A DNA stretch of 64,000 nucleotides. Source: a virus. Where the stretch lies: positions 1 to 64,000 of IMG/VR virus record IMGVR_UViG_3300051212_000701; one strand, 5' to 3'. Each line of letters opens with the position of its first letter. Position 1 is the stretch's first letter. A program made the position numbers and the translations under genes. Positions 1 to 56,394 of this stretch are shown here, piece after piece. The notes under the pieces are model-generated. The model had not been told where the DNA came from. It ran no database searches and worked only from the letters and a program-made list of their open reading frames with translations.

Positions 1-305
1 GGTTTATTCCTTGAAGAGTTTCCTCCAAGGGTAAATTTCTTTTCGTATTGTGGTAGATGATCAAATTCGAGTACCCAGTGTGGGTAATCTTCTTTGCAGT
101 CAGTACATTTTTTGCCTTGTTTAGCTTTTCTAATGTAGGCCCTATTGCGATGCCTGCTCTGCTTTCTTCTATTTGAAGTTTTTTCTTTTTGCCCAGAACC
201 GACGTGGTATGATATTGTTCCCTTTGACACGCCTAGTATTTTTTGTATTTGCCTATAGGACTTCCCCTCAGCATAAAGCTTAAGGATTTGTTCCTTCTTA
301 GTCAT
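1..305 (-). CDS. HTH-HNH endonuclease, 3' end cut by window
   Basis: The reading frame starts at ATG 305-303 and is still open after 101 codons at base 1. Residues 15-34 form a helix-turn-helix (KSYRQIQKILGVSKGTISYH), followed by a very basic linker, then CTDC at 67-70 and LEFDH at 79-83. That order matches phage HNH nucleases with a zinc-knuckle and an N-terminal HTH, which are often free-standing homing endonucleases. The second half of the HNH motif lies outside the window, so activity cannot be judged. A consensus promoter sits immediately upstream and would give a leaderless transcript. Family call fairly secure; homing role is inference. Confidence 0.75.
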   Translation of the reverse strand, partial: MTKKEQILKLYAEGKSYRQIQKILGVSKGTISYHVGSGQKEKTSNRRKQSRHRNRAYIRKAKQGKKCTDCKEDYPHWVLEFDHLPQYEKKFTLGGNSSRNK

Positions 306-340
306 GGTTCAATTATACATAAAATGTTGAACCATGTCAA
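304..340 (-). promoter_or_regulatory. Leaderless promoter with inverted repeat before HNH gene
   Basis: On the minus strand, -35 TTGACA (340-335) is followed by 17 bases and -10 TATAAT (317-312). Six bases later comes the ATG of the HNH gene, so transcription should start at or beside the start codon. A perfect 9-base inverted repeat, ATGGTTCAA (304-312) and TTGAACCAT (327-335), spans the promoter and includes the ATG. It is a candidate operator, possibly for the HTH domain of the gene product itself (inference). Confidence 0.75.
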
Positions 341-477
341 GGACCTACCTTGCAAGACTCCAATATAGTTGCTATTTTTTTAATTTCCTTATCATTCTTT
401 GTTGTAATAGCATTCCATGCCATAAAATTAACAACCAGAAGAGTGGCTAAGAATATAAGAATAATTTTATCTTTCAT
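337..477 (-). CDS. Small single-TM protein, 46 aa
   Basis: ATG 477-475 to TGA 339-337. The N-terminus MKDKIILIFLATLLVV is a basic start followed by a hydrophobic stretch of about 17 residues, then a short polar, lysine-rich tail. It looks like a one-pass membrane or signal-anchored peptide. It follows the 493-1188 gene by 15 bases and its stop codon overlaps the -35 box of the HNH promoter. No family recognised. Its size and the lack of a visible strong ribosome binding site keep confidence moderate. Confidence 0.5.
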   Translation of the reverse strand: MKDKIILIFLATLLVVNFMAWNAITTKNDKEIKKIATILESCKVGP

Positions 478-492
478 AAAATAAATTATACC

Positions 493-1188
493 CTATTTAT
501 ATTCTTTTCTATTCCAGTAGTTATTCTTGTAATAACCAGATATCTTAGATCTGCTTTTAATGTCCTGTATCATACCATGCTCGCTCAAAGATTCATCTAT
601 TTCAGTTTGCCATTTATCTCTTTTAAACGGTATGACTTGAATTATTGGGGTTCCCGCCTCAATGATCCCTTCAAAATCTTTTTTCAAAGCAAAAGGTTGC
701 TTGCCCCATACTCCCCATCTATCAGTGTCCATGACGCCTGTTGTTGTAATAAAAGGAAGATCAGTTCTATTAAATGGGTGAGTCAATATGCAGCTATATC
801 CTTTAGGGGTTTGTATACCCCAATAAGACTGCCATGAAAAAACAAAAGGATGAAAGTTTTCATAAATAGGCAAGTCGTTTATAGGGTCTCGCATAACAAC
901 CTCTGCCAAATTTTCATATGTGTGGTTCCAAGATAAGTAGGGTACTCCGTTAATATTTTTTACAAATATGTCTGCCCATAAATTAAACGTATAGCCCGTA
1001 GAATAGGAGTCTAAAAATGGAACACATCTTTTAACAGAATAGTTTGATTGCCCGTTAGATACATTTAGCTTTGTGTCACCATTTGTGAAATTAGATACAT
1101 CTTTAAACCACTGCGGGGGTCTAGAAGGCATGGGGTGTGGAATAACTTGCTTGACTAAGCTATTCATTGGGTAAAATTTTATCTTCAT
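493..1188 (-). CDS. Conserved phage protein, IPFKR family (copy A)
   Basis: 231 residues, unknown function. It shares with 1185-1889 and 16745-17443 a set of ordered motifs: P-x-P near the start, a PxW(F/Y)K segment (here PQWFKD), CVPF with a following GY, TPKGYSC, G-V-M-DTD, and QVIPFKRD near the C-terminus. There is no signal peptide or membrane segment, and the composition suggests an all-beta domain. The family resembles the DUF6065 type of phage and bacterial proteins; that label is from memory and unverified. It overlaps copy B by 4 bases, so the two are co-translated. Tandem duplication is the simplest origin. Confidence 0.8.
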   Translation of the reverse strand: MKIKFYPMNSLVKQVIPHPMPSRPPQWFKDVSNFTNGDTKLNVSNGQSNYSVKRCVPFLDSYSTGYTFNLWADIFVKNINGVPYLSWNHTYENLAEVVMRDPINDLPIYENFHPFVFSWQSYWGIQTPKGYSCILTHPFNRTDLPFITTTGVMDTDRWGVWGKQPFALKKDFEGIIEAGTPIIQVIPFKRDKWQTEIDESLSEHGMIQDIKSRSKISGYYKNNYWNRKEYK

Positions 1189-1889
1189 CTGTATTCTTTT
1201 CTAGACCAGAATAAGTTTCTGTATGCATCAAAAAGTTTTGATGCTACAGTTCTTTGATTTTTAAAGTTTTTTTCTTTGTCTAAGGGAGTTATACTCATCT
1301 CATAAGACTCTCTTTTAAATGGTATTACTTGAGCTATAGGGGTACCAGCTTCGATCATACCCTCAAAGTATTTATCTTTTAAATTAAATGGTAAGGCAAC
1401 TTTTTCGTAATACGTATCTGTATCTACAATACCAGGCAATATAATTATCTGGTTATCTCTGTGCATTGGAGGTAAAAACATGCATGAGTAACCCTTTTCG
1501 GTTTTAATTATCCAAGGGTTTTCTATTTTTAATTGATATCCTAAATTATTTTCAGGATGCTTTTGTGCTTGAAAAGGACTGTGACTGCTCAAAACATCTG
1601 TATCTTTTTGATTTTCGTTTTCTGATCTCCAATGAAAATACGGTCCGTTTTCTGTTTGTTCTATATAAAAATCTTGTTGCAAAACAATCATATATCCTGC
1701 AGTTAAAGCATCAAACACAGGAACACATTTTTTTATTGTACTGAATGCTTGATCTTTTGATGGCTTTTTAACATCGTTTGCGTAAGATTTGGCTTCTTTA
1801 TACCACTCTGGTATAAACTTACTTGAAGGGGCAGGGTTGTAAATACCCTCTGTATCATCATACCTTGAAAACTCAATTTTTTTAGCCAT
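1185..1889 (-). CDS. Conserved phage protein, IPFKR family (copy B)
   Basis: 234 residues, unknown function. Motifs in order: PAPSSKFIPEWYKE near residue 20, KKCVPVFD, TEKGYSC, GIVDTD, and EAGTPIAQVIPFKRE near residue 190. The stretch EAGTPIxQVIPFKR is almost identical to copy A (493-1188), while the first half has diverged. Both end in a similar WxRKEY C-terminus. The ATG is at 1889-1887. Neighbours give no functional clue beyond being accessory genes. The family is shared with 16745-17443 and more remotely with 3106-3879. Confidence 0.8.
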   Translation of the reverse strand: MAKKIEFSRYDDTEGIYNPAPSSKFIPEWYKEAKSYANDVKKPSKDQAFSTIKKCVPVFDALTAGYMIVLQQDFYIEQTENGPYFHWRSENENQKDTDVLSSHSPFQAQKHPENNLGYQLKIENPWIIKTEKGYSCMFLPPMHRDNQIIILPGIVDTDTYYEKVALPFNLKDKYFEGMIEAGTPIAQVIPFKRESYEMSITPLDKEKNFKNQRTVASKLFDAYRNLFWSRKEYR

Positions 1890-1895
1890 GTTATA

Positions 1896-1982
1896 TTATA
1901 GATCTATATCTAACTGTTTGTCAATAGCATCATCCATACTATATGGATGTTCTTTTGTACATTTACCGCACTCTTTACACAT
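1896..1982 (-). CDS. Very small CxxC protein, 28 aa
   Basis: ATG 1982-1980 to TAA 1898-1896. The sequence opens MCKECGKCTKEHPYS with cysteines at 2, 5 and 8, then an acidic tail. This could be a metal-binding knuckle. It lies between the terminator at 1989-2012 and copy B of the IPFKR family. It is short enough to be chance, but it fits the tight gene spacing and the many other mini zinc-ribbon genes here. Confidence 0.4.
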   Translation of the reverse strand: MCKECGKCTKEHPYSMDDAIDKQLDIDL

Positions 1983-5281: not shown

Positions 5282-5583
5282 TGCTTTAACTCTTTCATAA
5301 GAGCATGCTTGGGCTTTGCGCCATGCACTATATGCACTGGTTTTCCATCAACAAATAATACCATAGTTGGTATTGTTTGTACAGCGTATTCCTTAGTTTT
5401 TTCTAAATTCTCATCAATATTTAACTTACCGATGAGTAGTCCAGTCTCTGATGAGATCTCGTCCAGTATTGGGGAGACCATTCTACATGGCCCGCACCAT
5501 TCCGCCCAGAAATCCACCAATATTTTTGTGCTGCTAGCAACAGCTTCATCAAAATTATTATCATTAAGCAACAAGCTTGCCAT
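5272..5583 (-). CDS. Thioredoxin
   Basis: 103 residues, full length for a single thioredoxin domain. The active site WCGPCRM places the redox cysteines at 30 and 33, preceded by LVDFWAEW. The cis-proline loop TIPTMVLF (P72) is also present. Thioredoxins reduce cytoplasmic disulfides. Phage copies can feed ribonucleotide reductase or act as polymerase processivity factors, but no reductase gene is visible here. The gene overlaps the glycosylase upstream by 20 bases and the 77 aa gene downstream by 10. Confidence 0.93.
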   Translation of the reverse strand: MASLLLNDNNFDEAVASSTKILVDFWAEWCGPCRMVSPILDEISSETGLLIGKLNIDENLEKTKEYAVQTIPTMVLFVDGKPVHIVHGAKPKHALMKELKQWI

Positions 5584-6064
5584 ATTTTACCTCATGAGTA
5601 GGCCAATAGTATTGACATTTATCGCAACATGGTTTGTTATATGGATCATTTACTGCAGAGGCAAATTCAGCATAAAAGATGGGATCTTTACGATATAGAT
5701 TTGCCTTATGCGTAGCATTTACACGCTTAATGATTGTAGGTGTAGAAGCCCAAATTGGAGTGTTGTCCTCCCACATTAAAGACTTACGATCACGAGACAA
5801 TGATTCTAGGTTAGATTTATTCTTGTCTGTTTTGATTCCACGCATATCTGCTAATACCACTGCAGTCATTGCGTAACGATAAAGTTCTGCTTCTGCCCCT
5901 TCCCACATTAACACAGCGGGATGATTGCGCCAAGCGTTAGACTTGGAGTTGCCAGTCAAAATATTTAATATCTGATAGCATTCTAAAATTTGTTTGTTGA
6001 GTCTTTTACTATCCAAAGCATCTAAGCTGTTACGCTTTGCTGGATGAGGTAGAAATGTTTGCAT
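5564..6064 (-). CDS. Pyrimidine-dimer glycosylase (DenV-like)
   Basis: 166 residues. The start MQTFLPHPAKRNSLDALDSK, then KRLNKQILECYQIL and WRNHPAVLMWEG, match the actinobacterial MSMEG_6728-type branch of the pyrimidine dimer glycosylase/endonuclease V fold. T4 DenV cuts DNA at UV-induced dimers. A C-terminal pair CCDKCQYYW is an extra possible metal knuckle. Promoter and ATG suggest leaderless expression (see 6071-6099). Family call is good; the exact lesion is not shown. Confidence 0.8.
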   Translation of the reverse strand: MQTFLPHPAKRNSLDALDSKRLNKQILECYQILNILTGNSKSNAWRNHPAVLMWEGAEAELYRYAMTAVVLADMRGIKTDKNKSNLESLSRDRKSLMWEDNTPIWASTPTIIKRVNATHKANLYRKDPIFYAEFASAVNDPYNKPCCDKCQYYWPTHEVKYGKLVA

Positions 6065-6070
6065 AGTCCT

Positions 6071-6099
6071 ATCTTACTAAATAAAAGGGGGCAAGTCAA
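6071..6099 (-). promoter_or_regulatory. Leaderless promoter for glycosylase operon
   Basis: Minus strand: -35 TTGACT (6099-6094), 17 bases, -10 TAAGAT (6076-6071), six bases, then ATG at 6064. The -35 lies inside the terminator hairpin of the upstream gene, so terminator and promoter share sequence. Drives glycosylase, thioredoxin and the 77 aa gene. Confidence 0.65.
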
Positions 6100-6112
6100 T
6101 ACTTGCCCCCTT
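6085..6112 (-). terminator. Rho-independent terminator
   Basis: GGGGGCAAGT (6087-6096) pairs perfectly with ACTTGCCCCC (6101-6110), loop CAAT, and the minus-strand exit reads TTTTATTT. It ends the subtilase/70 aa transcript just past the stop at 6116. Confidence 0.85.
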
Positions 6113-6115
6113 ATT

Positions 6116-6328
6116 TTAATTATCTTTTAAAGCTTCTGCTGCTGCATTAAATCTATTCATAAATTCTTGAATGACCCAAAAGGTTGTATCTGTTGCATTT
6201 TGTCTCAAAGCTTTTGATACTTCTTCTGTTTTTTGTTCAGCAGATCCCGCATTGTACCACTTTTGATATAACTCATTAGAGATATCAGTAATTATTCCCT
6301 CAAGAACAGTTACTTGTTTTTCACCCAC
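6116..6328 (-). CDS. Hypothetical helical protein, 70 aa
   Basis: GTG start at 6328-6326, overlapping the subtilase stop by 8 bases. Predicted mostly alpha-helical and acidic (VLEGIITDISNELYQKWYN, then a helix ending EALKDN). No membrane segment or signal. It is always co-transcribed with the protease by this layout and could be a partner or cytoplasmic inhibitor, though the sequence gives no direct support for that. Terminator follows directly. Confidence 0.65.
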   Translation of the reverse strand: MGEKQVTVLEGIITDISNELYQKWYNAGSAEQKTEEVSKALRQNATDTTFWVIQEFMNRFNAAAEALKDN

Positions 6329-7247
6329 GGATTGCTCCCTCTTGATTAATTAGTCTAGCGTTTTTAACCTTAGAATTGCTAGAAATTGTTGCAGTTTTTG
6401 CAATAAGATCGTACATTTGTGAGACTGTAAATCCTGGCTTTGAAGATTTAACTGCAAGCCATTGTGCTGCAGCAATTTGAATTGATGCAGAGGTCCCAGC
6501 AACAGGAACCTTCTTATTTCCTGGACCAAAGGTTTGTGTAGTTCCTTGTGCGTAGAAATCAATAAGCTTGGCGTCATAGTTTGAATATACTGCAACAGAC
6601 TTTGTTGGCATTGTTGCCCCAATTGCTATAGATTCTGGAAGACAGGCTGGCCAGTTAATTCTTGTTAAATCAAAATCATTTCCTGCTGGCAAGAATACTG
6701 GAATACCAGAGTCTAGGAGTGTTTTGATTTTAGATTGAGTAGTAGGTGTTCTAGGGCAGTAATCAGTTCCTGCAACAAAATTTCTTGCTGATTGAGCCAT
6801 AGTTACTGCTTGAATATTATATTTTGCGGAGTTATCAATTACCCATTGAAGAGCATTGAATACGGTTTGTTCAGTTGCTACTTGACGAATACCATCTGGG
6901 TTATTGCCAATAATACGAACGAATACAATGTTCATTTCTGGATTTGTAACAGCAGCAAGATAAGCCATTTGAGTGCCATGATCAAATCCATTTTTTGTAA
7001 TTAGATTTGCAGGAAGAGTTGCTGCACCTGGACCCTCTTGAATCTTTTGTCCGTTAGGACATGGTCCACGTTCAAGAACGCATACTTCTTGAATAATTCT
7101 ATCTTTGAAAATTGGTAAAGATGTGTCAATCGCTGTGTCCAGGATTGCTATCGAAGGTTTTAGATTATTATTCTTTAAAGAAGCATGTGCTGCTCCAGGA
7201 ATAATTAGAGTAAGGGCCACAAGGGCGGTTGTTAGTTTTTTATTCAT
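6321..7247 (-). CDS. Secreted subtilisin-like serine protease
   Basis: 308 residues. Residues 1-22 form a signal peptide ending in AHA. The S8 family catalytic triad is complete: D37 in AILDTAID, H90 in FDHGTQMA, S253 in GTSASIQIAA, plus the oxyanion asparagine N190 in PAGND. The mature domain is compact (about 285 residues) without an obvious propeptide. Cysteines at 56, 63, 164 and 202 could form disulfides, in keeping with export. A secreted phage protease could process the surface protein at 3936 or degrade host envelope proteins (inference). Expressed from a leaderless-type promoter. Confidence 0.88.
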   Translation of the reverse strand: MNKKLTTALVALTLIIPGAAHASLKNNNLKPSIAILDTAIDTSLPIFKDRIIQEVCVLERGPCPNGQKIQEGPGAATLPANLITKNGFDHGTQMAYLAAVTNPEMNIVFVRIIGNNPDGIRQVATEQTVFNALQWVIDNSAKYNIQAVTMAQSARNFVAGTDYCPRTPTTQSKIKTLLDSGIPVFLPAGNDFDLTRINWPACLPESIAIGATMPTKSVAVYSNYDAKLIDFYAQGTTQTFGPGNKKVPVAGTSASIQIAAAQWLAVKSSKPGFTVSQMYDLIAKTATISSNSKVKNARLINQEGAIRG

Positions 7248-7254
7248 AGAGTAT

Positions 7255-7282
7255 ATAATATCAAAAAACTTCTGGTTGTCAA
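7255..7282 (-). promoter_or_regulatory. Promoter for subtilase gene, near-leaderless
   Basis: Minus strand: -35 TTGACA (7282-7277), 16 bases, -10 TATTAT (7260-7255), seven bases, then ATG at 7247. No ribosome binding site fits in the gap, so a leaderless or nearly leaderless mRNA is expected. Confidence 0.65.
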
Positions 7283-7849: not shown

Positions 7850-8404
7850 TTATACCTGTATAAATGAATAAGGGGCGGAAACAGCCATATTAAATGTAGC
7901 TGCTGCTTCTAATGCCACTTTCATTCTTACCTTTGGGTTCTTTTGATTTTTAGTTGCATAAAGAGCACCTAATGCTAAGAAAGCTCCGCTTCCTTCTGCC
8001 ATATAATTAACTATGTTTTCTGCTATATGAAAATCTTCATCCATAGTAAAGATTCTTCCTTCAACCCCTATTAGGAATATTCCGCCTTCATCTTCTTGCC
8101 CCGAAACCTGGCTTCCGTATCCGTGTGCCCTGAAGGCATCTTTTACTGAATCAACAAACTTTGTTCTCATAAACTTGTCTAGTCCTGAGTTAGTTTTGGT
8201 TGGAGTATATTTTGGTGGGGTCCAGTTGTATTGAAGAATCTGTCCCATTCTAAAGGAATCTGTAAATGCAATTCCATATTGTCCTACTTTAAAAACTTTA
8301 GGATCTTTTCTTGCAAGAATCCATCCAGTCTTGTCATCTGAGGCTGCATGATCAGCCCCCATGTAAACTATTCCATTTTGGGCTATGGCTACAATACAGG
8401 TCAT
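7850..8404 (-). CDS. Ntn-hydrolase, proteasome/HslV-like
   Basis: 184 residues. The start MTCIVAIAQNGIVYMGADHA resembles proteasome beta and HslV subunits: removal of Met1 would expose Thr2 as nucleophile, with D18 in GAD and a lysine in DPKVFKVG as catalytic partners. A GxF/S-RMG helix (SFRMGQILQY) follows, as in uncharacterised phage and actinobacterial proteasome-like proteins. Whether it forms a barrel, joins the host proteasome or acts as a different amidohydrolase cannot be told. First gene after a leaderless promoter. Confidence 0.75.
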   Translation of the reverse strand: MTCIVAIAQNGIVYMGADHAASDDKTGWILARKDPKVFKVGQYGIAFTDSFRMGQILQYNWTPPKYTPTKTNSGLDKFMRTKFVDSVKDAFRAHGYGSQVSGQEDEGGIFLIGVEGRIFTMDEDFHIAENIVNYMAEGSGAFLALGALYATKNQKNPKVRMKVALEAAATFNMAVSAPYSFIQV

Positions 8405-8410
8405 AGTACA

Positions 8411-8439
8411 AGTATACTATTTAAAAATTCGAAAGTCTA
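8411..8439 (-). promoter_or_regulatory. Leaderless promoter for Ntn-hydrolase gene
   Basis: Minus strand: -35 TAGACT (8439-8434), 17 bases, -10 TATACT (8416-8411), six bases, ATG at 8404. The -35 overlaps the stop codon of the upstream gene (8437-8439). Confidence 0.6.
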
Positions 8440-8730
8440 GTCCCCTTCTTCTGGGTGACTAAAATGTAATAAACTGTGCTCAAGTTCAGCTTTAACCGAA
8501 ATTAATTCTTGTATAGTGGAGTAGTATTTTTGCTTCCACTCATCTAATTCTTTTTCCAGGGCATATAGCCTAATTTGACAATCTTTGAGCTCAAGCATTA
8601 GCCTATCGTGCTCACGCTCAGATTTTCTGACATTTTCTTTCTTAGTGTCTCTAAGGTAGGCTATTAGTCCAGTTACCAAGGCCCCCAACAATGTTGAAGA
8701 AATGGTAATAATTAGGGTCTCAGTATTCAT
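8437..8730 (-). CDS. TM plus coiled-coil protein, 97 aa
   Basis: Residues 5-27 are one transmembrane helix (LIITISSTLLGALVTGLIAY), then a basic patch and a long charged coiled coil (residues 35-90). This topology resembles small inner-membrane spanin-like or Rz-like proteins, but those are not expected in a monoderm or actinobacterial setting and it is 2 kb from the endolysin. A TATAAT box (8747-8742) precedes the ATG by 9 bases, with no clear -35. Function unassigned. Confidence 0.6.
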   Translation of the reverse strand: MNTETLIITISSTLLGALVTGLIAYLRDTKKENVRKSEREHDRLMLELKDCQIRLYALEKELDEWKQKYYSTIQELISVKAELEHSLLHFSHPEEGD

Positions 8731-8758
8731 GATAAACTAATTATACATGAAAATAAGT

Positions 8759-9192: not shown

Positions 9193-9493
9193 TGGGTACC
9201 CCTTCTAGTTCGCATCTTACTCCGTAAGACTCGATTAACCTTTTAACTCTGTCAACATAATCTATAACCATTTCCTTTTTGGTTCCTTGATACTGTATAA
9301 AATTATCTTCATATAATCTTAAAGCTAAAAAATCTGGGTACTGCACCACATCCAGCATGAGATCTGGAACTGGTTTTTTTATTTCACGTACTTTAGTAGA
9401 CATCTCTTTAGTATAAAAAACTGGCTTGTTGGGCTCACCATTCCATAGGTTTATGCCGTGCTTAAAATGATCTTTATTTCCTATTAATTCCAT
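9167..9493 (-). CDS. Hypothetical protein, 108 aa
   Basis: Small soluble protein with MELIGNKDHFKHGINLWNGE and a segment DFLALRLYEDNFIQYQGTKK like those in small regulatory proteins of actinophages and mycobacteria. The KKEMVIDYVDRVKRLIESYG helix is amphipathic. It overlaps the WhiB gene end by 20 bases, so it is co-translated with the regulator and is probably regulated with it. No function recognised. Confidence 0.65.
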   Translation of the reverse strand: MELIGNKDHFKHGINLWNGEPNKPVFYTKEMSTKVREIKKPVPDLMLDVVQYPDFLALRLYEDNFIQYQGTKKEMVIDYVDRVKRLIESYGVRCELEGVPSEKILRSS

Positions 9494-9794
9494 TTTTAAC
9501 CCTAATCATTTTCCAAACCTCTGGAGTTTTGTGAATGTTTTTCATCTTATCTATTTCTCCGCTATTTAAATATATTCCGCCCCACACTCCATGCTCGTTA
9601 TTTTCTACTGCAGAATCATAACACATTCTAGCAACGGGACAAGATAGACACATTTCGTCTATATTTTTTGCAATATTTACATCAGATTCATATTTATCAT
9701 AGAATAGATTGGTATCCATTCCTCTACAAATAGATAAATGATACCAGCTAAACTCTTCTTGATCTGTTCCTAATTCACTTAAAATATCTGACAT
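9474..9794 (-). CDS. whiB: WhiB-family Fe-S transcription regulator
   Basis: 106 residues. The four cluster-binding cysteines are in the WhiB order: C23, then C49-x2-C52-x5-C58, followed by the GVWGG turn at 69-73 and a basic C-terminus. Typical WhiB features CRG and NLFY are also present. WhiB proteins carry a [4Fe-4S] cluster, bind the primary sigma factor and act on promoters. They are limited to actinobacteria and their phages, which identifies the host phylum. Phage copies (as in mycobacteriophage TM4) can shut off host WhiB regulation and superinfection. The gene is second in an operon with a palindromic promoter (10043-10093). Confidence 0.93.
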   Translation of the reverse strand: MSDILSELGTDQEEFSWYHLSICRGMDTNLFYDKYESDVNIAKNIDEMCLSCPVARMCYDSAVENNEHGVWGGIYLNSGEIDKMKNIHKTPEVWKMIRVKNGINRK

Positions 9795-10008
9795 ATTTAG
9801 CTGGTAGCTTCCAAATTCCTTCGTTATTAACAGATACTCTTTCTGCTATACCCCAATTATCTTTTCTATACATGCCTTTTATGCTAGTATATCCGCCAGA
9901 ATCTTGTTTCCAAATCATTAGATCATAGTTGTCCCAAAAGGATTCTTGTCTATTTGTTTGTGATTTTCTTATAAAAACCTCTACACCTTTTAATGTGAGA
10001 TTTAACAT
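9775..10008 (-). CDS. Hypothetical protein upstream of WhiB, 77 aa
   Basis: A small beta-rich protein (EVFIRKSQTNRQESFWDNYD, then GGYTSIKGMYRKDNWGIAER). It resembles short ssDNA- or antirepressor-like phage proteins in outline only. It is the first gene after the palindromic promoter and overlaps WhiB by 20 bases, so the two are made together. No family recognised. Confidence 0.6.
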   Translation of the reverse strand: MLNLTLKGVEVFIRKSQTNRQESFWDNYDLMIWKQDSGGYTSIKGMYRKDNWGIAERVSVNNEGIWKLPAKYVRYFK

Positions 10009-10042
10009 TTTATTCCTTGTCTAGTATGTCCGCCTAAACAGT

Positions 10043-10093
10043 AGGGCCGCAGCCCATATATATATTATACAGTAAGGATTGCGGCCCTGTCAA
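10043..10093 (-). promoter_or_regulatory. Consensus promoter with palindromic operator (WhiB operon)
   Basis: Minus strand: perfect -35 TTGACA (10093-10088), 18-base spacer, perfect -10 TATAAT (10069-10064). A 9-base perfect inverted repeat, AGGGCCGCA (10043-10051) and TGCGGCCCT (10080-10088), has one arm touching the -35 and the other about 10 bases past the expected start point. Its GC content stands out from the AT-rich surroundings. The placement fits a two-site operator. The downstream arm also forms a small hairpin GGGCTGCGGCCC in the RNA leader. Which protein binds is unknown. Confidence 0.75.
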
Positions 10094-11325: not shown

Positions 11326-11769
11326 TTAATCCTTATCCCAATCTGTATCAACTGGTTGTTCTGCTGGCATTGCGCCATCTGGCTTCGCAGCTAAACGTGC
11401 TCTAACTGCATCTAGCTCTGCATCAAGCTTATCTTCTGCCATTCTAATTTCTGATTCAAGCTTTTTATCTGCTTGAGTATTTTTTGCATCTACTTCTTTG
11501 TTATCAATCTGTGCTTTCATAATATCTTTAGCACCTGATTGTCCAATTAGAAGACCCGCCAAAGTTCCTGTGATAAATGTTGCAACTGAACCAAGCACGT
11601 TAAAGAACATCTTATCGTTTTCTGACTGCTGCCCAATTGGTTGTGATACGAACAATAGCCCGTATAAAATTCCTACTGATGTCAAAAGAAGAATTGTTCC
11701 AAGAGTCAATCCTAGAATAAATTTCAATCTTGCATCAAGATCCGCTGGTGTTAATCTTTCTTTAGCCAT
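11326..11769 (-). CDS. Two-TM membrane protein, holin candidate
   Basis: 147 residues. TM1 is about 16-37 (FILGLTLGTILLLTSVGILY), TM2 about 56-75 (VLGSVATFITGTLAGLLIGQ). The C-terminal half is a charged coiled coil (KLESEIRMAEDKLDAELDAV). It is immediately upstream of the endolysin with one base between, the standard position for a holin, although the coiled-coil tail is longer than usual. The alternative holin is 12002-12196. Confidence 0.65.
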   Translation of the reverse strand: MAKERLTPADLDARLKFILGLTLGTILLLTSVGILYGLLFVSQPIGQQSENDKMFFNVLGSVATFITGTLAGLLIGQSGAKDIMKAQIDNKEVDAKNTQADKKLESEIRMAEDKLDAELDAVRARLAAKPDGAMPAEQPVDTDWDKD

Positions 11770-11983
11770 TTTTTACCTTACTATTCTGATAGTCTGTCCA
11801 TATTTTTTCGCCAACAATATCTTTGCTGCACGTGCCTGTTGCATCACAAACTGGTGGATTACATTCTGCTTTATCCCAATTTGCTTGATCTTGGCAAGGA
11901 TAGCGGAAACTGCCCTGATACCCACACCCTGTGAGTGTTAGAACTAGCATCACGCTTGACAATGAGGCAATTATTTTTCTCAT
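11762..11983 (-). CDS. Small lipoprotein, 73 aa
   Basis: The signal MRKIIASLSSVMLVLTLTGC ends in a lipobox (LTGC, lipidated C20). The mature part is 53 residues with four more cysteines (C30, C41, C46, C52), probably two disulfides. Phage lipoproteins in lysis or entry-exclusion regions can block superinfecting DNA (as in Ltp from streptococcal phage); that function is inference. The start is six bases after a -10, so the transcript may be leaderless. Confidence 0.75.
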   Translation of the reverse strand: MRKIIASLSSVMLVLTLTGCGYQGSFRYPCQDQANWDKAECNPPVCDATGTCSKDIVGEKIWTDYQNSKVKNG

Positions 11984-11989
11984 ATGCCT

Positions 11990-12018
11990 ATTATAGCATT
12001 TCTATTCTTCTTTTCGAA
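11990..12018 (-). promoter_or_regulatory. Promoter before lipoprotein gene
   Basis: Minus strand: weak -35 TTCGAA (12018-12013), 17 bases, extended -10 TGCTATAAT with TATAAT at 11995-11990, six bases, then ATG at 11983. It combines the two promoter styles of this window and lies partly inside the end of the upstream 12002-12196 gene. Confidence 0.6.
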
Positions 12019-16744: not shown

Positions 16745-17443
16745 TTATTTATCTCTTTGTCTTTGCCATTTCCTATAAGTTCCGTTTGGCACAAATTTAG
16801 ACATTATATCTAAATTTTTATTTCTAAATAACTTTATATCTTTCTCTGTTTGATATCTAATATTTAAATTTAATTTGTTATCTCGCTTAAATGGAACGTA
16901 TAAGACAAATGGATCTCCTCTATTAATTTGCACAGGCTCTCCATTGCCATGATACAAAACCTGTTGATTAATTTCATGATGTATGTCTGTGTCAATAACT
17001 CCAGGTAACACAGAATATTCTTTGTTGAAATGATAAAACAAAGGTAACTGTAATACAGACCAGCCTTTAGGAGTTATCATTCTCCATGGGCATTCTGCTT
17101 TAAAAACAAACTCTGATTCAGAACCATTAAATCTAACCTGAGTATGATCAATTAGTTGGCCTCTGCCGTGCATATTCCAACTAAAGTCTGGCGCTGCGGT
17201 TTCCCAAAACCAATCTGTTGTACCTGGCTTGTGGGAAAGCTTTGTATCTGTCCACATAGGAACAATATACCCCAAAGAAAAATAATCTGGAAAAGATGGA
17301 CAAACTTTTACTGTGGACAAATTTAATCCAGTTGCTGGCATATCTTTAAACCATTTAGGTATAAAGTGTTTTGCTGGTTTAGGCAGACATTCTTCTATGC
17401 TCTCTAACCCAGGCACTGTGCTAATAAAAGTTATTTTACTCAT
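16745..17443 (-). CDS. Conserved phage protein, IPFKR family (copy C)
   Basis: 232 residues. Shares LPKPAKHFIPKWFKDMP, KVCPSF, TPKGWSVLQLP, GVIDTD and YVPFKRD, in the same order, with 493-1188 and 1185-1889, from which it is separated by 15 kb. It is clearly more distant from those two than they are from each other, so the split is older than the tandem duplication. It lies between tRNA genes and an uncharacterised gene. Function unknown. Confidence 0.8.
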   Translation of the reverse strand: MSKITFISTVPGLESIEECLPKPAKHFIPKWFKDMPATGLNLSTVKVCPSFPDYFSLGYIVPMWTDTKLSHKPGTTDWFWETAAPDFSWNMHGRGQLIDHTQVRFNGSESEFVFKAECPWRMITPKGWSVLQLPLFYHFNKEYSVLPGVIDTDIHHEINQQVLYHGNGEPVQINRGDPFVLYVPFKRDNKLNLNIRYQTEKDIKLFRNKNLDIMSKFVPNGTYRKWQRQRDK

Positions 17444-17751
17444 TAGTTGTTTGGTATATCTTCAATATCATCTGGAAAATCTATTAGACCCATTTGTTTA
17501 ATAGCCATCTTGCCTTCTGCGGAAACTTCAATTAAAGCTTCTAAATTTTCATTATAGGTAACGTTTATTAATCCTTGCTCTAGCAGAGAAACTAAAGTTT
17601 TGTCTATATGTTCTTGATGTGCCATCCATAGCTCTGGAGCTACATCTTGACAGGTCTCAGATATTTTAAAAATCATTTCTCCGTCTTTATCTACGCCAAC
17701 TAGTTCTACCGCTCCTATATCTAAATAGTATTGAAACTTATCTTCTTCCAT
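17443..17751 (-). CDS. Hypothetical protein, 102 aa
   Basis: Acidic soluble protein with a wHTH-like outline: helices around 45-65 (LWMAHQEHIDKTLVSLLEQG) followed by strands LINVTYNENLEALIEVS and helix AEGKMAIKQMG. It might be a small winged-helix regulator, but there is no basic recognition helix. Start overlaps nothing upstream except the short gap to the tRNA-Met; its stop overlaps copy C by one base. Confidence 0.6.
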   Translation of the reverse strand: MEEDKFQYYLDIGAVELVGVDKDGEMIFKISETCQDVAPELWMAHQEHIDKTLVSLLEQGLINVTYNENLEALIEVSAEGKMAIKQMGLIDFPDDIEDIPNN

Positions 17752-18096: not shown

Positions 18097-19892
18097 AGTA
18101 TTTTCATTCCTTCCATATATTCTTTTAAGTGTTCAGGCATCCTTGGAGCACGTATCATGTTATATTGATTTGTGTCTTGGTCCGTTTTATTAAAATCATC
18201 ATCATAAGAATAAGACTCATAAGTATGAATTGAAATTTCATCATTATTATTTGGCCTAGTGTTACCAATAGCGTTAAATATTGATCCGCAGACAGCATCT
18301 GCTAAGTCTTTAGAGCCTTTTCTTGGGTGATCTACTTTATCTCTCATAATTTTTAATTGCAATAATTCATCAATAAGCAAAGGAATATGAGGTCCCTTTA
18401 GTCTCTCTTCTAATACTACCATTGCCATATCATCATAATGCTTTTTAGCAACAGATAATGTTTCTGTATTAATTCCATACTGCTTTAACTGTTGCATCAT
18501 ATCATGAGAATTCCATCTGTCAAAAGTACAAAGTCTAATTTTAAATCCTGCAGTTCTTAATGACAATATATAATCTCTTACTTCTGCAAAATCAACAGAC
18601 TTATCTGGAGTAGGTGTCCAATATCTAACTGCATCAACCTCTACAATTGGAGCAGGCTGTGAGTATGTGTCAGTTACTTTTACATTAACCCATTTTTTAA
18701 CATGGGCCATCGCAACAGCACAATGGTCATGTTTTTGTGCTAGGTCAACATGTATAAAATATTCTTTATCTTCTTCTGGTTTAAACCAAGGCTCTAGTCT
18801 TCCGAATCCATCTACCGCCATGGCCATATTGCTAAAAGCTTTTTCAATTTTTTCACGAGACTTAAAAAATGCATCAACTGCATCTGAGGGCATGCATGCA
18901 AAACGACTTAAAGCATCAGGCATATTTTTATAAAATTCTACCTTAAAGTCTTCTATTTTTTTTGTTGGATTGATCTCCCAGGTAGGTCTTTTAAGTGCAT
19001 ATACTCTAGGTATCTTGTATGATATTATATGGTCCTCTTCCCATTCAACCAGAACTTCGTTTCCTGGAATTCCATCTGGTAAATCATTATCCATCTTCAA
19101 TAATTTACTTCTAACTATAGTTTCTTTTTCAGCAATAGCAGAATCATAAAACTTTTGTATTGGATCATTTTTAAATCTAGGGAATGACAAAAGAATTACT
19201 TTCCCGTAGTCTGGAAAACGAGATACTACGGACCCACGATACATATCGTATATTGCGTCCGCAGTCTTTGCTTGATCATGTCCTGTAGTATTTTCTGTTG
19301 CAAATCCTGATATTTCATCAAGAATAACAGCAATTACGTTATAGCCCTCAAACGCTTCTCTTTCTGAGTGTCCAGAATATACATTGATGCTTTTATCAAA
19401 TCTAATTTCAGAAGCTTTAGGATCATATTTACCTGCAAACCACGGGCACCTATCTATTCTGGTTTTAAATCCTTTAAAAAAAACATTGTTTGCTTGCTGA
19501 GCATTTATAGCAATGTTGATGACATCTATTGTGTCTCCTGGAGGCTTACCATAATACGAAGCAGGATCTTTTAAGCATAACAGTAAATAAACTATATAGG
19601 CCACTGAAATTGTAGAACAGTAATCTTTTCCGCTACCTTTGCCTAATTGTGCAATAACTTCATTACAAGTTTGCTTAAACATTCTTCTACCCTCTTCTTC
19701 ACCGAAGAGTTTAATTAATGTAGATTCTTTATATATTGTAGAACTTTTTTCAATTAGTGTATATTGATAATCGGAAAGTGGAGGAAGTCCTAAATAGTCT
19801 GGATGAGTGACAAATGTCTTTAGATCGACGGGTCTTTCATCAAACTCTTCTCCGTCGAGTATATCTATAAGATCATTAAAATTAAGCTCCAC
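18093..19892 (-). CDS. terL: Terminase large subunit
   Basis: 599 residues, GTG start. ATPase: a Walker A-like GKGSGKD at 84-90 (one residue different from the usual GxGKT/S) and Walker B VILDE at 189-193. Nuclease: D383 in FIHVDLAQKHDHCA begins an RNase H-type site, with a later SKDLADAV. The enzyme powers DNA into proheads and cuts the concatemer. It overlaps the small subunit by 11 bases. It is 36.5 kb from the portal in this map, unlike most siphoviruses in which the two are adjacent. Confidence 0.92.
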   Translation of the reverse strand: MELNFNDLIDILDGEEFDERPVDLKTFVTHPDYLGLPPLSDYQYTLIEKSSTIYKESTLIKLFGEEEGRRMFKQTCNEVIAQLGKGSGKDYCSTISVAYIVYLLLCLKDPASYYGKPPGDTIDVINIAINAQQANNVFFKGFKTRIDRCPWFAGKYDPKASEIRFDKSINVYSGHSEREAFEGYNVIAVILDEISGFATENTTGHDQAKTADAIYDMYRGSVVSRFPDYGKVILLSFPRFKNDPIQKFYDSAIAEKETIVRSKLLKMDNDLPDGIPGNEVLVEWEEDHIISYKIPRVYALKRPTWEINPTKKIEDFKVEFYKNMPDALSRFACMPSDAVDAFFKSREKIEKAFSNMAMAVDGFGRLEPWFKPEEDKEYFIHVDLAQKHDHCAVAMAHVKKWVNVKVTDTYSQPAPIVEVDAVRYWTPTPDKSVDFAEVRDYILSLRTAGFKIRLCTFDRWNSHDMMQQLKQYGINTETLSVAKKHYDDMAMVVLEERLKGPHIPLLIDELLQLKIMRDKVDHPRKGSKDLADAVCGSIFNAIGNTRPNNNDEISIHTYESYSYDDDFNKTDQDTNQYNMIRAPRMPEHLKEYMEGMKIL

Positions 19893-20424
19893 TGACCTGC
19901 TCTGAATCTATTACTACTGGCTCAACTACCCCAGTTATTTGAGATAGTCTTTTTGCAACTTCTAATTTACATTTTGAACAGCTTGAAGTAACTTCTTTTA
20001 AAATTTTTACAAGGATATCTTGTTTTCTTTCTGTTTCAGCAAGTTGAGATGCAAGTTCATTATTCTCTAGAACACCTATAGACTGTAGCATGCCTATTCT
20101 TTTTGCTTCAATGTCTGCAATAAGTTTTAATGCTCCAGATTTTACACCTAGTTGCCCAGACTGATCGGCGTCTTCTACTGTCTTCCATGCTTCTTTAATT
20201 AGCATGGCGTAGTGCTGGTCTGCTCCAGATATGGCTTCTTTTGCCCTATCTCTTATGTTGCTGTCATTATGAACAACTTGCTTCCAGTCGTCTATAAGCT
20301 CAAGAACTTCTTTTCTTTGTAGCCCTGTTGCCGTTGCAATTTGAGTAGGGCTATTGCCCTTTAGTAATTCTTCGACAACTTTATTCATTCTGTCAAAGCG
20401 TTCTGATAATTCTATTTCGCTCAT
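19882..20424 (-). CDS. Probable terminase small subunit
   Basis: 180 residues. Residues 20-45 (GNSPTQIATATGLQRKEVLE) form a helix-turn-helix; residues 65-145 are long helices including GALKLIADIEAKRIGML, as in DNA-recognition subunits that oligomerise. A late CSKC pair is at 147-150. Position directly before terL supports the call; no direct sequence signature was matched. Transcribed from a leaderless promoter with its ATG six bases after the -10. Confidence 0.75.
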   Translation of the reverse strand: MSEIELSERFDRMNKVVEELLKGNSPTQIATATGLQRKEVLELIDDWKQVVHNDSNIRDRAKEAISGADQHYAMLIKEAWKTVEDADQSGQLGVKSGALKLIADIEAKRIGMLQSIGVLENNELASQLAETERKQDILVKILKEVTSSCSKCKLEVAKRLSQITGVVEPVVIDSEQVSGA

Positions 20425-20430
20425 TAATAT

Positions 20431-20459
20431 ATTATACTTCTAGTCGACTAAAAAATCAA
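20431..20459 (-). promoter_or_regulatory. Leaderless promoter for terminase operon
   Basis: Minus strand: -35 TTGATT (20459-20454), 17 bases, -10 TATAAT (20436-20431), six bases, ATG at 20424. The spacer contains the palindrome TAGTCGACTA. The -35 overlaps the stop codon region of the upstream gene (20456-20458). Confidence 0.7.
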
Positions 20460-55011: not shown

Positions 55012-56358
55012 TTAGTTAAATATTTCGTTCACGGAACCGAGGAAAGAACCGTTCCATTTAGATTTCTTGATTGTTACCTCTTCTGATCGGCCAAGATCGG
55101 AAGACTTCTTAATTGCTGTTTCTGCCTCAACGGCGTCTACACGCTTTTGTACTCCTGAAAGAGTACCTTTTACTTCATTTACAGCATTTGATAATGCTGT
55201 GTGTTGTTCTGCCAACTCTGTAATTCTAGCATCTACGCTCTTGCTGAATGTCTCAACTGTTTCCTTAATTGATGCAACTTGAGCAGCATTTGATTCGGAT
55301 GCCTTTGTCAAAGTATCCGAGAAAAAGCCTTTTAGTTCGCCCAACATTTTTGCAAAATCAGGTTCTGCATTGACCTCAACTTCTGATACGTCGGCTGCTT
55401 TCTCCAGAGTTTCGGCAGGAGCGTCTTCTGCAGGTGCTTCTGCTGCTTCTGCGGCTGGAGCCTCTGCTTCAACTGCAACTGCTTCGGCTGGAGCCTCTGC
55501 AACTGGAGTTGTCTCTTCTGCAGCTACAGCAGTCTCTTCGACAACTGCTACTGCTTCTGTATTTTCTGACACTTCATTACCTCCTTCTGCGTTTGCCTGT
55601 TTTGCTAATTGTGTATCAGGCAACGTAAATCTTGATTGCTTATATGCATCAAGAATCTTATCTATCTCTTTTGACTTATTTACATCTGAGCTTTCAACCC
55701 ATCCAATAAGTTCCGCTGGCTTTCCAGATACTGGAGAGTCATATGTTTTTTCTGTTGAGATAAAAACAGAATCACTTTCTTCACAATAAAAAATATTTTC
55801 AACTTTTGTTTCTGCAGCAATTCCTTTAAAAACAAGCTGACCATTCATTTTTTGAATTGACAAAATGTTGCACAGCTCGTTTGCTGGAGAATCAACAATT
55901 GAAAGCTCAAGCAAAGAATATTCTTTAATAAATCTAGTTGATTTACCTGTTGATTTATTTACTTCATTATCAGATTCAATTATTTTTCCGCCAATAGAAA
56001 ATCCAGACAATGTTCCGTCAAGAACTTTTTCCCATGTGTCTTGTGCGCCCTTAGATATGTATGCGTCTACATAAACTCCATTATAAAATTCTTTTGTTGT
56101 TGGATCATAAAAGGTTTCTGGCTTAAAAGAAATCATTTTGCCTACGGCATTTGATCCGTGCATCTCACGAATGTTTCCACGAAAAGATTCAAAAGCTTTG
56201 ATGGATGCTTCTGCTGTTACCACATCACCTGTTTGATCTAGGTTATCTAGTGTGGCAAATCCAGATACAGTTCTCTTTTCACGGTTTACCTTAGTAAAAG
56301 GAACCGAAAGAGAGATGCTGTTTCCATCGCTGGACCATAATGATTTTTCAATATTCAT
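55012..56358 (-). CDS. Capsid maturation protease with scaffold-like C-terminus
   Basis: 448 residues. Residues 1-170 are an XkdF-like/S78 prohead protease: FTKVNREKRTVSGFATLDNL, IREMHGSNAVGK with H67, LSGFSIGG with the catalytic serine (S118 or S121), LLELSIVDSPANELC. Residues 255-330 are Ala/Glu-rich and disordered (EAPAAEAAEAPAEDAPAE), then a coiled coil to the end that would act as scaffold. Self-cleavage releases the scaffold during maturation. ATG is 7 bases after a -10, near-leaderless. Confidence 0.85.
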   Translation of the reverse strand: MNIEKSLWSSDGNSISLSVPFTKVNREKRTVSGFATLDNLDQTGDVVTAEASIKAFESFRGNIREMHGSNAVGKMISFKPETFYDPTTKEFYNGVYVDAYISKGAQDTWEKVLDGTLSGFSIGGKIIESDNEVNKSTGKSTRFIKEYSLLELSIVDSPANELCNILSIQKMNGQLVFKGIAAETKVENIFYCEESDSVFISTEKTYDSPVSGKPAELIGWVESSDVNKSKEIDKILDAYKQSRFTLPDTQLAKQANAEGGNEVSENTEAVAVVEETAVAAEETTPVAEAPAEAVAVEAEAPAAEAAEAPAEDAPAETLEKAADVSEVEVNAEPDFAKMLGELKGFFSDTLTKASESNAAQVASIKETVETFSKSVDARITELAEQHTALSNAVNEVKGTLSGVQKRVDAVEAETAIKKSSDLGRSEEVTIKKSKWNGSFLGSVNEIFN

Positions 56359-56365
56359 ATGCTTA

Positions 56366-56394
56366 ATTATAGGTTTTTATATATCAAAAGGCAA
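56366..56394 (-). promoter_or_regulatory. Near-leaderless promoter for protease/capsid
   Basis: Minus strand: -35 TTGCCT (56394-56389), 17 bases, -10 TATAAT (56371-56366), seven bases, ATG at 56358. The same -35 TTGCCT occurs at 50717-50722 before the major tail gene, suggesting a common late class. Confidence 0.65.

Follow-up and report, generated by a model that had tools for sequence, protein, structure and literature searches.

A leaderless promoter layout recurs before genes of a phage family related to Streptomyces phages

Introduction

At the beginning of the virus record examined here a TATAAT hexamer ends six nucleotides before an ATG on the minus strand. Would an mRNA from such a promoter begin at its start codon, and does the phage use this arrangement as a class? 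An earlier note, made from the sequence alone, had listed seven such starts and answered both questions with yes. Leaderless mRNAs are familiar from actinobacteria. In Mycobacterium smegmatis initiation requires no more, and no less, than a 5'-terminal ATG or GTG, and single leaderless genes are known from the phages lambda and P2 (PMC4633059). Gene 90 of mycobacteriophage Adephagia is predicted to be leaderless (PMC11373665), and another paper comments that leaderless transcripts are frequent in phages (PMC5312081). In the literature covered, which was thin in subscription journals, we found no paper on a phage family using leaderless genes as a class; because of this thin coverage the absence of papers is no proof of novelty.

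The window is the whole stretch of DNA that was analysed, i.e. 64,000 nucleotides, positions 1 to 64,000 of the 85,950-bp record IMGVR_UViG_3300051212_000701. The remaining 22 kb were read as loci. GC content is 37%, and 99 of 105 called genes are on the minus strand.

Results and discussion

Promoter-like elements next to start codons

The number of nucleotides between a -10 hexamer and the start codon is called the gap. A -10-like match is a promoter candidate, not proof of a promoter, and the term leaderless is used below as a prediction from this spacing. The candidates and their genes in the window are:

312-340, minus strand: promoter of gene 3-305; TTGACA 335-340, 17-bp spacer, TATAAT 312-317, 6 nt, ATG 303-305
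3-305, minus strand: leaderless gene for a helix-turn-helix protein, running to the window edge; C-terminal part HNH-like by eye
485-490, minus strand: TATAAT, gap 7 to ATG 475-477; weak -35
337-477, minus strand: predicted 46-aa ORF with leaderless layout and hydrophobic N-terminus
1895-1924, minus strand: promoter of gene 1185-1889; TTGACA 1919-1924, 18-bp spacer, TATAAT 1895-1900, gap 5
1185-1889, minus strand: gene leaderless or nearly so; DUF6065 match weak and below cut-off
6071-6099, minus strand: promoter of gene 5564-6064; TTGACT 6094-6099, 17-bp spacer, TAAGAT 6071-6076, gap 6
6079-6110, minus strand: terminator-like hairpin, GGGGGCAAG-TATTGA-CTTGCCCCC plus TTTTATTT; loop and stem contain the -35 of the 6064 promoter
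5564-6064, minus strand: leaderless gene, pyrimidine dimer DNA glycosylase (PF03013)
7255-7282, minus strand: promoter of gene 6321-7247; TTGACA 7277-7282, 16-bp spacer, TATTAT 7255-7260, gap 7
6321-7247, minus strand: leaderless gene, subtilase (PF00082) with signal-peptide-like N-terminus
8411-8416, minus strand: extended -10 (TAG)TATACT, gap 6 to the ATG of gene 7850-8404; -35-like TAGACT 8434-8439
7850-8404, minus strand: leaderless gene, HslV-family peptidase (family by PHROG)
8740-8745, minus strand: TATAAT, gap 9 to gene 8437-8730; predicted leader about 3 nt
11990-11995, minus strand: extended -10 TGC-TATAAT, gap 6 to the ATG of gene 11762-11983
11762-11983, minus strand: leaderless gene, 73-aa predicted lipoprotein (LTGC)
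20431-20436, minus strand: TATAAT, gap 6 to the ATG of gene 19882-20424; -35-like TTGATT 20454-20459
19882-20424, minus strand: leaderless gene (phrog_9507), directly upstream of the large terminase gene
56366-56394, minus strand: promoter of gene 55012-56358; TTGCCT 56389-56394, 17-bp spacer, TATAAT 56366-56371, gap 7
55012-56358, minus strand: leaderless gene, head maturation protease

The seven starts of the earlier note were recovered exactly, all on the minus strand: a gap of six at 305, 8404, 11983 and 20424 as well as at 6064 (TAAGAT), and a gap of seven at 7247 and 56358. For most of them it also gave a recognisable -35 at a spacer of 16-17 bp, which was correct in part. The box is strong at 305, 6064 and 7247. 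At 8404 (TAGACT), 11983 (TCGAAA), 20424 (TTGATT) and 56358 (TTGCCT) it is weak, with 4/6 matches to TTGACA at a spacer of 16-17. The starts at 477, 1889 and 8730 were absent from the earlier list, and two others are located beyond the window, at 64354 (gap 6) and 85920 (gap 7).

The hairpin at 6079-6110 forms a very compact fusion of terminator and promoter, and relatives show similar arrangements. The phage subtilase is conserved in many relatives. The HslV-like protein had no sequence match among solved structures. A dyad, TGGTTCAA-N14-TTGAACCA (303-340), flanks the -10 of the helix-turn-helix gene; autoregulation by this protein is possible.

The spacing exceeds chance at gene starts

A -10 was scored when at least 5/6 positions matched, with TA...T fixed, and when the gap was 6 or 7 nt. 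This was the case at 9 of the 99 minus-strand starts, compared with 1.1 expected from internal ATGs (binomial P = 2e-6); 38999, whose TAGAAT may be a chance match, is among the nine, and 6064, where TAAGAT has 4/6 matches, is not. Dinucleotide shuffles of the upstream regions gave a mean of 1.5 and a maximum of 7 in 1,000. Exact TATAAT at gap 6/7 was present at 6 starts versus 0.24-0.35 expected. Thus, the claim that the spacing is above chance holds at gene starts (9/99 against about 1.1-1.5).

The earlier note had proposed a raw scan against shuffled sequence. Regardless of gene starts, the whole window contains a weak excess of TATAAT-N6-ATG (7 vs 1.8) and TATAAT-N7-ATG (4 vs 1.6), and none of TANNNT-N6-ATG (67 vs 68). 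Such a scan is a poor test, since most ATG triplets do not start a gene and the signal is confined to those that do.

Kinship and host of the phage

With Streptomyces phages of the Stanwilliamsviridae the record shares 54-64% identity in two proteins, the portal (54-58%) and the terminase (60-64%). The cultured members compared are Muntaha, Faust and Gilson; the record itself is possibly incomplete. They have 120-134 kb and soil Streptomyces hosts; here we have an 86-kb contig of 37% GC with many relatives from environmental metagenomes. A megablast of the record against cultured phages gave no match. The phage encodes a WhiB-family protein (whiB, 9474-9794), a family matched in only 1 of 14 control genomes (Corynebacterium). 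Together with this WhiB, the relation to Streptomyces phages backs the earlier idea of an actinobacterial host and makes an actinobacterium the most likely one. A freshwater host would be a guess from the sample types that hold relatives. Among cellular contigs the terminase was encountered in two only, in MAG bins labelled Cytophagaceae and cyanobacterium, which likely is binning noise.

Orthologues retain the layout and lack a Shine-Dalgarno sequence

Orthologue starts were fixed by homology from residue 1-3. For the subtilase (7247) a -10 at gap 6/7 was present in 78 of 81 distinct upstream regions, none of which had a Shine-Dalgarno (SD) sequence. The same spacing was seen in 92/96 orthologues of the HslV-like gene (8404), in 31/32 of the head protease (56358; 30/32 at gap 7) and in 7/9 of the terminase-adjacent gene (20424), and all 27 lipoprotein orthologues (11983) had gap 6. 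The glycosylase (6064) differed: 23 of 65 orthologue upstream regions had the -10 at gap 6/7 and 31 had no -10; those of the latter that were read are operon-internal copies. The layout is therefore not universal for a given gene. SD frequency was 0-2% in five leaderless orthologue sets and 15% in that of 6064. Gene 8437-8730 kept its gap of 9 in 19/24 orthologues, with no SD.

Leadered control genes of the same phages had an SD in 92-100% in 6 of 8 sets with orthologues, the other two having 67% and 30%. For control gene 53834 the -10 was mostly at 25-28 nt, and the only control with a -10 at gap 6/7 was 17751. This gene (17443-17751, after a tRNA) is leaderless-like in 6 of 10 orthologues and has an SD in the others; across loci L024, L029, L044 and L047 it alternates between a leaderless promoter and a leader with an SD, the latter in many cases downstream of a tRNA. 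It is a possible case for how one start mode turns into the other.

Between -10 and ATG the length was held while sequence conservation was low in three of four genes; the protease promoter was conserved throughout. A fixed gap of variable sequence is what a fixed transcription start site predicts.

A peak at gap 6 across relatives

About 400 IMG/VR loci were collected with terminase, head protease and three leaderless genes as queries. The first 160 loci gave 1,018 dereplicated starts; TATAAT stood at gap 6 before 46 of them, and the remaining gaps between 0 and 44 had 0-11 cases each. In this set leaderless-like starts had an SD in 2.7% versus 42% of the others, and 72 of 74 were ATG, the remaining two GTG. 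Compared by start codon, 59/60 leaderless-like and 685/905 other starts were ATG (P = 4e-6), although longest-ORF starts among the latter partly confound this difference. A larger set had gap 6 in 156 of 1,909 dereplicated starts and about 15 (5-33) at other gaps. When proteins were clustered and each of 314 families was given a weight of one, gap 6 scored 16.6 and other gaps about 2.7, with 47 families contributing; hence, the peak is not made by a few gene families. Muntaha, Faust and Gilson also have a visible gap-6 peak and the leaderless layout, in particular before the capsid protease (in Muntaha TTGGCT-17-TATTAT-6-ATG). T4, analysed in the same way, had no gap-6 peak.

The histogram of exact TATAAT is low at gaps 11-16 and rises modestly again at about 23-27, as would fit genes that have either no leader or one with room for an SD. 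Measurements in Lactococcus gave a comparable bimodality (PMC10986495). The median distance to the upstream stop codon was 32 nt for leaderless-like starts versus -1 (overlap) for SD genes. By this measure the leaderless genes are heads of transcription units. A simple count of upstream terminators (6.9% versus 3.2% for SD genes) was too weak for use. In all, about 10% of the phage genes have the layout, mostly at such heads.

Start codons and promoter type

At every site an in-frame stop is present 6-45 nt upstream, and within 50 codons downstream no SD-preceded in-frame start was found at any of them. In the HslV-like protein residue 2 is threonine in 96 of 96 orthologues. In HslV-type enzymes the N-terminal threonine is the nucleophile. 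This makes a different position of the ATG very unlikely. We regard the annotated start codons of the leaderless genes as secure.

The TATAAT-like -10 boxes correspond to those of housekeeping sigma promoters (SigA/sigma-70 type). A TTGACA-like -35 (at least 5/6, spacer 16-18 bp) was present in all 81 orthologues of 7247 and in 94% of the -10-bearing orthologues of 6064, compared with 0-21% in five others. In these two the -35 is near consensus and the -10 is mostly preceded by TAG. The promoters of 8404 and 11983 have poor -35 boxes; at 8404 TAG precedes TATACT in all 92 orthologues with a -10, and 11983 often has TGC-TATAAT. The pattern fits a housekeeping sigma factor that uses either a -35 or an extended -10. 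That the phage WhiB aids the -35-poor promoters is a guess.

Mechanism and alternatives

We consider it very probable that these are leaderless genes of an actinobacterial phage, transcribed by the host polymerase and translated from a 5'-terminal AUG. The sequence-level comparisons all agreed with the proposed class of leaderless transcripts: the spacing, the lack of an SD, near-exclusive ATG, the fixed gap, the orthologues, the separate leadered class and T4. Host RNA polymerase with a housekeeping sigma factor would bind a -10 ending 6-7 nt before the ATG, recognising the promoter by a consensus -35 or by an extended -10 with a weak -35. RNA synthesis would start at the A of the ATG or within about 1-2 bases of it, at most a few; these 5' ends are predicted from the -10 spacing. 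The host 70S ribosome would then initiate on the terminal AUG without an SD, as in mycobacteria and Streptomyces. Operon-internal genes and some operon heads would use ordinary SD leaders. Longer transcripts from upstream promoters could carry the leaderless-layout genes too.

The promoters might be real and the start sites shifted, with a short leader or another start codon and a mis-called ATG next to the -10. Longest-ORF starts are indeed often wrong, and gaps of 8-9 do occur (8730), giving leaders of 2-3 nt. The upstream stops, the lack of a later SD-preceded start, orthologue conservation from residue 1 and the Met-Thr needed by the HslV-like gene all contradict mis-calling, and two other genes open with signal-peptide-like sequences. 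We rate this as very improbable. Highly improbable is that the AT-rich hexamer is a translation element (S1-type, as in Bacteroidetes) in genes read from upstream promoters. The genome is AT-rich, and AT-rich non-SD ribosome-binding sites (RBSs) are known in other phyla (PMC9581028); yet exact TATAAT rather than general AT richness is seen, and its gap is fixed at 6. Moreover, a TTGAC(A/T)-like box is located 15-19 bp upstream in every promoter-bearing orthologue of 7247 and 6064, the terminator-like hairpin overlaps the 6064 promoter, leaderless-like sites come after intergenic gaps, and TATAAT is also found 18-35 nt upstream of SD genes at about three times background. A Bacteroidetes-type promoter or RBS was ruled out because the motif is TATAAT with TTGACA.

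Chance proximity of TATAAT-like hexamers to ATGs in an AT-rich phage would agree with the flat TANNNT scan of the window. It is contradicted by the enrichment at gene starts, the gap-6 peak in relatives, the conservation in orthologues and the lack of a peak in T4, and we treat it as already refuted. Leaderless genes read by host polymerase and ribosomes thus remain our preferred explanation. As an unlikely extension, the two start modes might constitute a regulatory division: leaderless heads would stay translated when infection or stress alters host initiation, e.g. when anti-SD function is lost or initiation factors are changed, and expression of SD genes would be lowered.

Relation to known systems

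The layout resembles that of leaderless mRNAs in M. smegmatis, M. tuberculosis and Streptomyces avermitilis in the -10 by the start, the lack of an SD and the preference for ATG. Likewise, the genes are a minority mixed with leadered ones: about 10% here, about 14-25% in mycobacteria (about 14% when genes are counted, close to a quarter when transcripts are; PMC7148126, PMC4633059) and 22% of mRNAs in S. avermitilis, where AUG is strongly preferred (PMC8780764). Mycobacteria also use GTG, whereas GTG is nearly absent here, in a phage family whose transcription start sites are predicted. As in lambda, P2 and Adephagia a phage mRNA would run from its start codon, by prediction in Adephagia as well as here. 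Those cases concern single genes. In this phage the layout stands before many unrelated genes over the genome, those for virion and packaging functions among them, and it is conserved across the family.

In Muntaha, Faust and Gilson the protease gene has -35, 17 bp, -10, 6 nt and ATG, similar to the record. As the same layout is present in these phages, it has probably been kept since a common ancestor with these cultured Streptomyces phages.

The mechanism is a known one and ordinary for actinobacteria; in this phage family its predicted use is conserved and phage-wide. The label class is right for the phage family; the idea itself was already known from actinobacteria and single phage genes. 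Hundreds of relatives retain the layout, and cultured Streptomyces phages have it too. It provides a clean comparative case of phages taking up the leaderless habit of actinobacterial hosts genome-wide and across gene families, and one directly testable in the laboratory. Gene finders that expect an SD may miss or shift about one tenth of the starts in such phages. For uncultured phages the leaderless pattern may serve as a sequence hint to the host phylum.

Small ORFs and the whiB operon

A leaderless mini-ORF candidate is present at 2589. Another, TATAAT-N6-ATG followed by the 7-codon ORF MGCGPTV (10055-10069), lies within the leader of the whiB operon; it was rejected as a leaderless gene since MGCGPTV was not kept in the relatives read. 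The TTGACA/TATAAT promoter of gene 9775-10008, which is followed by whiB, has its -10 between the inverted-repeat arms AGGGCCGCA ... TGCGGCCCT (10031-10093). Of 52 upstream regions with this promoter 40% had arms of at least 7 nt, versus 2.6% in shuffles. The left arm is located upstream of the start site, so that the repeat resembles a diverging operator in the DNA more than a hairpin of the RNA. Among relatives the arms co-vary: CCGCAGCA, CCGTAGCA, CCGCAACA.
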